Shown here: piece after piece, positions 13,548 through 16,812 of the stretch
How the letters are laid out: the number at the start of each line of letters is the position of its first letter
Numbering within the stretch: position 1 is the stretch's first letter
Position numbers and translations under genes: made by a program
IMG/VR virus record: IMGVR_UViG_3300017771_000165
Span: 1-20,274 of that record
Direction: 5' to 3' (one strand)
Length of the DNA: 20,274 nt
Origin: a virus
The notes under the pieces: model-generated
Databases searched by the model: none
What the model saw: the letters and a program-made list of their open reading frames with translations, nothing else
What the model was told of the DNA's origin: nothing

Positions 13548-13572
13548 AAAAAAAAAGGGAGCCGAAGCTCCC
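13548..13572 (-). terminator. Intrinsic terminator after the capsid gene (T-phi-like position)
   Basis: On the minus strand, GGGAGC-TTCG-GCTCCC forms a perfect 6-bp GC-rich stem closed by a cUUCGg tetraloop, followed at once by nine T residues. This is a textbook rho-independent terminator. It lies 22 bases after the capsid stop and its T-tract touches the ATG of the next gene. In T7 the terminator T-phi is likewise between genes 10 and 11, so the position is conserved in layout. Confidence 0.95.
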
Positions 13573-13594: not shown

Positions 13595-14908
13595 TTAGAA
13601 TGCAGCAGGCGCAGATGAGCCAACATATAATTCTACACAGGCAGCAGGATTTAAGTAATCCGCTCCCATAGCTAGACGTCCTAAGATTACGTCTCCTTGG
13701 TAAACCACTGAGATGTCACCATTAGTTGTCTGTACTTGAGGTCCAATAGCCTCAACAATACCAGCTCCTTCTTTTTGGAAGATAAGACCACAAGAACCAT
13801 CAAAGGCACCTGAAGTACCGTAGCTGTTGTTGATACCAAAGATTGAATAAGTACATGCAGAACTTGAAACACTACCACTAACTGTATCTGTAATAGTGAA
13901 AGTATTAGCATTTGGTACAGTAGCAACAGTGTAAACACCAGTTGTTCCAGCACCAGCAGTTGCTGTGAATGTTACTTTGTCTCCTACAGAAATACCATGA
14001 GCAGTTTTAGTAACTGTTATTGCTGTATTTGATCTTGCATAAGCAGCAGTTATAGTTCCACCAGCAGAATCCATGTCTGGTCCTACAAAGTCTCCAGCAT
14101 TAGTTGGAGCAGCAGTTGTACCGAACTTACCTAAGAAAGGTATGTTCATAGATTTGTAGATCTTAATACCAGCGATTTCAACAACACCTTTACCTGATTG
14201 TAAAGCTGAACCTTGTACGTCACGGTTTATAAGACCACTATCTCCAGTTGCTTGGATAAGTGCGTAGTACTGTCTTGGGTTAAGAACAGCTACTCTTCCG
14301 TCAGAACTTACACCTTTTTCATCTAGTACGCTTGCAGCTTCATAAAAACCATTAACTAAGTTACTAGCAGTTGTTGCTTGAATAGCGTTGTTTGTAGCGT
14401 TAAGTTGTATCTGTGTTCCACCGGGTTCTGCAAATCCAGATGCAGAGATTGGAGATGCTGCACGAGCACCACGAGCTAAAGCTCTGAAGATCTTACGGTC
14501 ATAATTCTCAGCAAGAGCATAACCGATCTTTCTAGAAATTTCTCCTCTCAATTCGTAATGAGCAAGAGTCTCATCTAGGTCATACACGAATGCAGAACTG
14601 ATGAGTAAGTCGTCCATAACAATTGTCTTCTCAGCAACTGGAGGTGCCTTATCAGCGTTACCTAATATGGCAGTTCCCGGTTGGTGATAGGAACTGGTCA
14701 TGCGACCTGTATAAATGAACTGCAATGATTTGCCGTTCTTTAATGTACGCTTAGTGACTAAATCACGAGCGATTGTGTTGTGTTGGAAGCCTTTAAACAT
14801 CTCTCCACTGAAGAGTTTAAGGTAGGTCGCGTACTTATCAGAAGCACCGTCATACCCTATTCCAGTGGACAGGTTAATTCTACCTACACCAACTTGATTA
14901 GTATTCAT
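13595..14908 (-). CDS. Major capsid protein (gp10-like, HK97 fold) with inserted beta domain
   Basis: A 437-aa protein in the gene 10 position, between the photosynthesis cassette and the terminator. Features of T7-like podovirus capsids include an early FSGEMFKGFQHNTIARDLVTKRTLKNGKSLQF (N-arm and E-loop region), MDDLLISSAFVYDLDETLAHYELRGEISRKIGYALAENYD (spine helix) and SDGRVAVLNPRQYYALIQ (P- and A-domain). Residues about 283-356 interrupt the A-domain with a compact Thr/Val-rich unit (ITVTKTAHGISVGDKVTF, then GVYTVATVPNANTFTIT). That unit is a short beta module found in many phage tail and surface proteins. It probably projects from the capsomer surface. A weak AGG lies 4 bases before ATG 14908. 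No slippery site or extension for a 10B-like frameshift product is present, because the terminator follows immediately. Confidence 0.95.
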   Translation of the reverse strand: MNTNQVGVGRINLSTGIGYDGASDKYATYLKLFSGEMFKGFQHNTIARDLVTKRTLKNGKSLQFIYTGRMTSSYHQPGTAILGNADKAPPVAEKTIVMDDLLISSAFVYDLDETLAHYELRGEISRKIGYALAENYDRKIFRALARGARAASPISASGFAEPGGTQIQLNATNNAIQATTASNLVNGFYEAASVLDEKGVSSDGRVAVLNPRQYYALIQATGDSGLINRDVQGSALQSGKGVVEIAGIKIYKSMNIPFLGKFGTTAAPTNAGDFVGPDMDSAGGTITAAYARSNTAITVTKTAHGISVGDKVTFTATAGAGTTGVYTVATVPNANTFTITDTVSGSVSSSACTYSIFGINNSYGTSGAFDGSCGLIFQKEGAGIVEAIGPQVQTTNGDISVVYQGDVILGRLAMGADYLNPAACVELYVGSSAPAAF

Positions 14909-16598: not shown

Positions 16599-16615
16599 CT
16601 TCCATTTAGAAGATG
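16596..16615 (-). promoter_or_regulatory. Hairpin over hli stop and next start codon
   Basis: On the minus strand, CATCTTC-TAAATG-GAAGATG gives a perfect 7-bp stem with a 6-nt loop. The loop begins with the hli stop codon TAA, and the 3' arm ends with the ATG of the 45-aa gene. A ribosome finishing hli would open the stem, so this looks like a translational coupling element. Confidence 0.6.
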
Positions 16616-16812
16616 CCGGGTATGATCTGACCTGTGGTGACATAAGCACCGATAGCAGCAACAAAGCCAAGCATTGCTGCCCAGCCGTTAAAGCGTTCCG
16701 CTTCATGTGTCATAAAAGGATTTGTGTTGTGGTGTGTCATTGGAATAATTCGTACTGGTGGTTCGTAAGGGTATTCGTTTTCTAGTAGTGTGTCTAGATC
16801 TTTAGTTTTCAT
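16606..16812 (-). CDS. hli: High-light-inducible protein (single-helix chlorophyll-binding stress protein)
   Basis: A 68-aa Hli with the chlorophyll a/b-binding-type helix at residues 37-68, EAERFNGWAAMLGF and then AYVTTGQIIPGIF. The C-terminal TTGQIIPG is diagnostic of cyanobacterial and cyanophage Hlis. These proteins sit in the thylakoid membrane and protect photosystem II during assembly and light stress, which fits the adjacent psbA. The family motif ExxxxNxR is here E37..N42-G-W44, so Arg is replaced by Trp. The start at 16812 forms a TAATG overlap with the scaffold stop; a second Met at residue 25 would give a more usual ~44-aa protein, so the polar N-terminus (residues 1-35) may be an extension. 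It is the first gene of the photosynthesis cassette. Confidence 0.97.
   Translation of the reverse strand: MKTKDLDTLLENEYPYEPPVRIIPMTHHNTNPFMTHEAERFNGWAAMLGFVAAIGAYVTTGQIIPGIF

Follow-up and report, generated by a model that had tools for sequence, protein, structure and literature searches.

An endosialidase-type beta-barrel inserted in the major capsid protein of a T7-like marine cyanophage, with signs of exchange between close relatives

Results

The window, that is, the whole stretch of DNA analysed here, is the complete 20,274-base virus record IMGVR_UViG_3300017771_000165, and its best-covered named relatives at the DNA level are P-SSP2, P-SSP3, P-GSP1 and P-SSP7. The major capsid protein gene (T7 gp10-like) is located at 13595 to 14908 on the minus strand. 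It encodes a 437-amino-acid-residue protein that scored 238.1 bits against the Pfam profile PF21703 (Gp10A-like), above the curated cut-off of 27, and its closest solved relative is the P-SSP7 capsid (2xd8). The virus is an ocean cyanobacterial virus with a T7-like, HK97-fold capsid protein.

Directly before the start codon of the adaptor gene lies a terminator-like hairpin with a TTCG loop (13557 to 13572, minus strand; T run of nine to 13548), at a position that matches the T7 terminator after gene 10. One such hairpin was observed and 0.2 were expected in shuffles. A gene for a high-light-inducible protein (16609 to 16812, minus strand) adjoins psbA and shares 75% identity with its P-SSP3 counterpart. 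Between capsid and adaptor genes, P-SSP3 (L081, 4349 to 4768) and P-SSP2 (L084, 2854 to 3246) have an extra gene matching phrog_35130, of unknown function in PHROGs, and no counterpart of it was found in the window. We considered this gene as a partner of the insert described below and dropped it, phmmer having found it only in P-SSP2, P-SSP3 and L091 among the loci compared, some of which were short fragments.

The capsid gene contains an inserted beta-barrel module of 71 residues (residues 286-356; 13841 to 14053, minus strand), a block missing from P-SSP7 and most relatives. The initial annotation had pointed to residues 283-356 (13841 to 14062, minus strand) as a self-contained beta module of the tail-protein kind within a T7-like capsid protein, quoting a motif that runs from residue 297 (ITVTKTAHG) to residue 340 (NANTFTIT). 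The insertion itself was borne out, and alignment with relatives narrowed its extent to residues 286-356. The left border is placed only to within some residues, since the preceding loop (residues 262-285; 14054 to 14125, minus strand), which aligns with the T7 loop holding R262, is also variable. A short stretch of the module, HGISVGD (residues 304-310; 13979 to 13999, minus strand), stands out in an alignment of 47 modules, in which HG is invariant and the first G of GD nearly so.

Presence and absence of the module among relatives follow a single block. We aligned the window protein with those of seven named phages and 29 IMG/VR proteins; block 286-356 occurred in P-SSP2, P-SSP3 and L001-L013 but not in P-SSP7, P-GSP1, S-TIP37, NATL1A-7, Syn5 and L014-L029. 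The P-SSP7 capsid (2xd8) matches window residues 2-285 and 357-437 and nothing between, its own residues 293 and 294 flanking the gap. A scan of genome contigs gave 14 capsid relatives. Among the 80 closest IMG/VR capsid genes (the best 80 of at least 594 relatives), 13 have the module in the capsid gene and 67 do not. The initial annotation had named a segment shared by all close relatives as what would count against an insertion, and these 67 genes and the five named phages are without it. Locus counts from the capsid scan and the module scan are not counts of separate phages since some loci share contigs.

It is very improbable that there was no insertion, the segment being either an ordinary part of the A-domain lost in other cyanophages or an assembly error. 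The only root of our tree is the very long Syn5 branch, which leaves some room for loss, but T7, Syn5, NATL1A-7, P-SSP7, P-GSP1 and S-TIP37 are all without the segment in the alignments, and the insert occurs in two isolates and many contigs, which speaks against faulty assembly. The match to PF12195 described below (E 1.2e-8), a confidently predicted independent fold and the one-block presence or absence among relatives put the insert beyond chance. A foreign beta domain is inserted in the capsid protein of this virus, and the relatives that do without it indicate that this kind of capsid can assemble in its absence.

In a tree of 89 proteins built from the capsid body only, one change separates 22 carriers from 67 non-carriers, as a single origin of the capsid inserts would give, but it falls on a branch without support. 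This tree omits identical proteins, the L088 copy of the window and proteins shorter than 300 residues (among them the carriers L092, L107 and L108). In a tree of the modules themselves, L013 stands apart from the other capsid inserts, and the AU test does not reject one clade (p 0.314). The best BLAST match of the L013 insert is the tail-tip module of L122 (54% over 74 residues), with capsid inserts next (54% over 59). A second, separate acquisition of the module in L013 is only suggested by these sequence comparisons.

By sequence and by predicted structure, the best match of the insert is the endosialidase beta-barrel family PF12195 (End_beta_barrel). The segment alone matched the Pfam profile at E 1.2e-8 (35.2 and 35.1 bits; cut-off 35), whereas within the whole capsid protein the score was 31.3 bits, below the cut-off; 43 of the 47 aligned modules matched at E 0.01 or better. 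A sequence search of the PDB with the module found the endosialidases of phi92 and K1F (E 6.5e-4 and 4.3e-3). AlphaFold2 predicted an all-beta fold for the module alone with 46 relatives (mean pLDDT 97.5). When this model was compared with VIA-align, the endosialidases 4hiz, 3ju4, 3gvj, 3gvk and 1v0e took the top five places (Z 9.7-9.0, rmsd 1.8-1.9, 71 residues), for example 4hiz with Z 9.7, rmsd 1.8 and 71 aligned residues, and 3ju4 residues 427-505 with Z 9.2. Lower ranks went to ubiquitin E1 (Z at most 8.0) and riboflavin synthase (at most 7.7). The Foldseek order agreed (best E 1.9e-3, probability 1.00); Foldseek gave no match for the module at E 0.001 or better in the PDB, and at that level 20 predicted viral structures matched. 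Two P22 coat chains were weak Foldseek matches (8i1v_B, E 0.27; 5uu5_A, E 0.36). Within the module family Y290 and F337 are invariant and Y326 is nearly so, and the module lacks tryptophan.

Ig-like accessory domains of phage virions are promiscuous surface modules found across unrelated virion proteins. Like them, the capsid insert belongs to a kind of module spread over unrelated virion proteins, but its profile and fold are those of the endosialidase barrel. The PKD profile gave 14.1 bits (cut-off 23.5; E 0.049), and no other Ig-type family was among the Pfam matches listed.

The same module occurs in other virion proteins. We took the best 80 of 477 module-encoding places in viral contigs and classified their ORFs by masked phmmer against class representatives named by PHROGs. 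These 80 loci held 81 module-bearing ORFs: 26 capsid proteins, 23 nozzle proteins, 18 tail-tip proteins of the J type, 12 small unclassified proteins, one adaptor and one internal virion protein (L128). When the phage collection was searched with a nozzle copy, 26 records matched, 17 of them from Prochlorococcus phages or cyanophages (the GenBank and RefSeq versions of a record count separately). The matches included tail tube B of NATL1A-7, baseplate wedge gp7 of P-HM1, a tail fibre of P-HM2, a minor tail protein of MED4-184 and the capsids of P-SSP2 and P-SSP3. With the window's module as query, P-SSP2 and P-SSP3 were the only matches in that collection (E up to 0.01). PF12195 is named in a table of receptor-binding-protein domains in the accessible text of PMC9230537.

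In L009 two successive genes carry the module, the capsid gene with its insert and the adaptor gene behind it. The adaptor ORFs of L009 (6292-7425), L010 (3080-4030) and L097 (3401-4369) encode 317 to 378 residues, compared with 204 in the window. The long adaptor ORF of L009 contains the barrel module, and the extra part of the L010 adaptor had no Pfam match at E 0.01. Small ORFs of 148 to 202 residues (L123, 2479-3006; L147, 2317-2922; and ten similar ones) have the barrel in the middle; the L123 protein had no PHROGs match at E 0.001, and the match of L147 was confined to the module stretch. The nozzle ORFs of L006 (2638-6372) and L013 (2590-6345) encode about 1250 residues compared with 1001 in the window, and they have matches to the carbohydrate-binding module PF02839 that are weak and below its cut-off.

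No part of the capsid gene other than the N-terminus is less conserved than the insert. In 220 of the 231 pairs formed by the 22 carriers, the insert had diverged further than the body (median 24% vs 9%, gaps counted). All 22 distinct carriers longer than 300 residues keep the insert open and in frame, with its invariant positions. Close relatives appear to trade versions of the barrel domain. The clear case is L097 and L010, whose DNA, compared in 60-base steps, is mostly 93-100% identical over about 4 kb; identity falls to 63-85% in four steps at the insert and then returns to 98-100%. Two other steps were lower (52/60 and 50/60, the second within the capsid gene), and the 420 bases before the insert were slightly less alike than the rest. 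Between these two loci dS was 0.05 in the body and 0.89 in the insert. Together, the drop at the insert and the contrast in dS argue for replacement as a unit and not for fast change alone, which points to one clear cassette-like replacement between closely related phages. The nozzle gene holds another block of sharp divergence between the two loci (L097 4928-5323; about residues 186-317).

For nine close pairs, the insert had a pN/pS of 0.51, compared with 0.11 for the body (Fisher p 7e-12). The pairs were nearest neighbours used without reuse, their independence not being proven, and pairs below 0.003 or above 0.15 were excluded, as was L097-L010. Synonymous change pooled over the nine pairs was 0.10 in the insert vs 0.19 in the body. 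In the pair L007-L105 the body shows about 43 synonymous changes and the insert shows none, a pattern that fits exchange and that local constraint on synonymous sites could also give.

Discussion

In an alignment with T7 gp10A, the inserted block comes directly behind residue 275, in the same loop as R262. A review (PMC5701804) assigns R262 to the A-loop of T7, which it locates at the five-stranded sheet and describes as following the insertion position of P22-like phages (for T7 it writes 'P7', but the structure cited is that of T7). In PhiM1 an external decoration protein is reported to dock in a pocket partly made by the A-loop (PMC11440229), and the T=7 shell of P-SCSP1u is given 415 capsid subunits (PMC10575957). 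The outward position of the barrel on the head, in hundreds of copies, is the natural inference from the T7 A-loop. This placement relies on the A-loop literature because our model of the whole capsid protein, made with a 52-sequence alignment, was poor in the body (mean pLDDT 53). The A-loop of P-SCSP1u, as PMC10575957 describes it, is about as long as the T7 loop, and P-SSP7 and Syn5 have longer ones. This disagrees with our alignments, in which the loops at the insertion site are short in both P-SCSP1u and Syn5 and longer in T7; the paper may be referring to a different stretch.

Beta domains set into HK97-fold capsid proteins have precedents in P22, phi29 and crAss001 (PMC5701804, PMC10172136). 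Like the P22 coat I-domain and similar inserts in phi29 and crAss001, the cyanophage insert is an accessory beta domain within such a protein. The I-domain, a six-stranded Greek-key barrel with a D-loop and an S-loop, spans residues 226-344 in P22, compared with 71 residues in the cyanophage insert, and the fold match between the two is weak. Unlike the I-domain, the cyanophage insert is found in a single cluster within a phage group and appears to be exchanged between phages. The beta-barrel of the K1F and phi92 endosialidases (PF12195) resembles the insert in sequence profile, predicted fold and nesting inside another domain. That barrel is seated in a tailspike enzyme, whereas the insert is in a major capsid protein and has no known sialic-acid binding. 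The P-SSP7 capsid protein (2xd8), the best solved relative, has a body like the window's and is without the insert. The suggestions of the initial annotation that the module projects from the head and aids surface binding or stability are plausible. It had also offered the module as a replacement for a separate decoration protein, and this part was not upheld: the available text of PMC10575957 reports a shell of capsid protein only for the insert-free P-SSP7.

We tentatively propose, at a probability of roughly 45%, that the insert is an accessory binding domain, outward-facing in hundreds of copies, with a putative ligand, and exchanged as a cassette. The putative binding role is based on the barrel family (K1F), the company of tail proteins and the evolution of the insert. 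Standing on the outer face of the head in an A-domain loop, the barrels would bind weakly and in many copies to cell-envelope or dissolved glycans or to other particles. Such binding may raise the chance of encountering a host or remaining near it, and recombination would exchange barrel versions as targets differ. According to PMC12632334, the K1F endosialidase binds polysialic acid at three sites, one of them the barrel, which is also a hotspot of host discrimination. The mutational scan in that source found the barrel largely tolerant of mutation, which counts against binding. Y290, F337 and Y326 look like core residues and tryptophan is missing, so that no sugar-stacking face is evident, and the module copy in the internal-virion-protein family (L128) also counts against surface binding. 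A broader version is rather doubtful in our estimation: the head lattice itself would be an adhesion or host-recognition surface, its hundreds of glycan-binding barrels coming from a common stock that also supplies the nozzles and tail-tip proteins of marine phages, Prochlorococcus phages included, and being swapped as cassettes under host-driven selection, as tail fibres are.

The main rival is a cement fused to the capsid, with the barrel packing on neighbouring subunits and strengthening the head as the P22 I-domain probably does, and binding no external ligand. Inserted beta-barrels in the HK97-fold capsids of P22 and crAss001 are reported to contribute to stability (PMC5701804, PMC10172136, in the parts available), the decoration proteins of PhiM1 are placed near the A-loop (PMC11440229, in its available text), and the P22 coat chains 8i1v_B and 5uu5_A are among the weak Foldseek matches. 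A tight subunit interface, however, would hardly be the most poorly conserved part of the gene outside the N-terminus, nor replaceable with the body almost unchanged, and close relatives manage without the insert; we regard a cement as unlikely. Less probable again is that the barrel is merely tolerated as a passenger: after a single landing of a mobile domain in a permissive loop, it would drift under relaxed constraint and serve no function. A pN/pS above that of the body and below 1 fits relaxed constraint as well, and the single change on the unsupported branch between carriers and non-carriers would agree with one landing. The intact reading frame and invariant positions in all 22 distinct carriers and the recurrence of the same fold in several virion proteins weigh against a passenger.

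In a search of PubMed Central titles and abstract starts, a coverage outside which most subscription papers lie, we found no paper describing this insert. As far as that literature goes, an endosialidase-type barrel in a T7-like cyanophage capsid protein, apparently behaving as an exchangeable cassette, is new. Family identity and exchange between phages also go beyond the initial annotation. The barrel, whose family is known from a capsule-cutting tailspike, also occurs in tail proteins and can be exchanged whole between close phages.

When 20 cyanopodovirus genomes were compared in 2015, mcp proved incongruent with other core genes, and the authors call the reason for its lower conservation unclear (PMC4646655). 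A swappable surface cassette is one possible contribution, partial at most because only P-SSP2 and P-SSP3 in the phage collection matched the window's module. The insert also speaks against using the full-length mcp sequence as a marker for this group. For these viruses, the head itself may help the particle to stick to surfaces.
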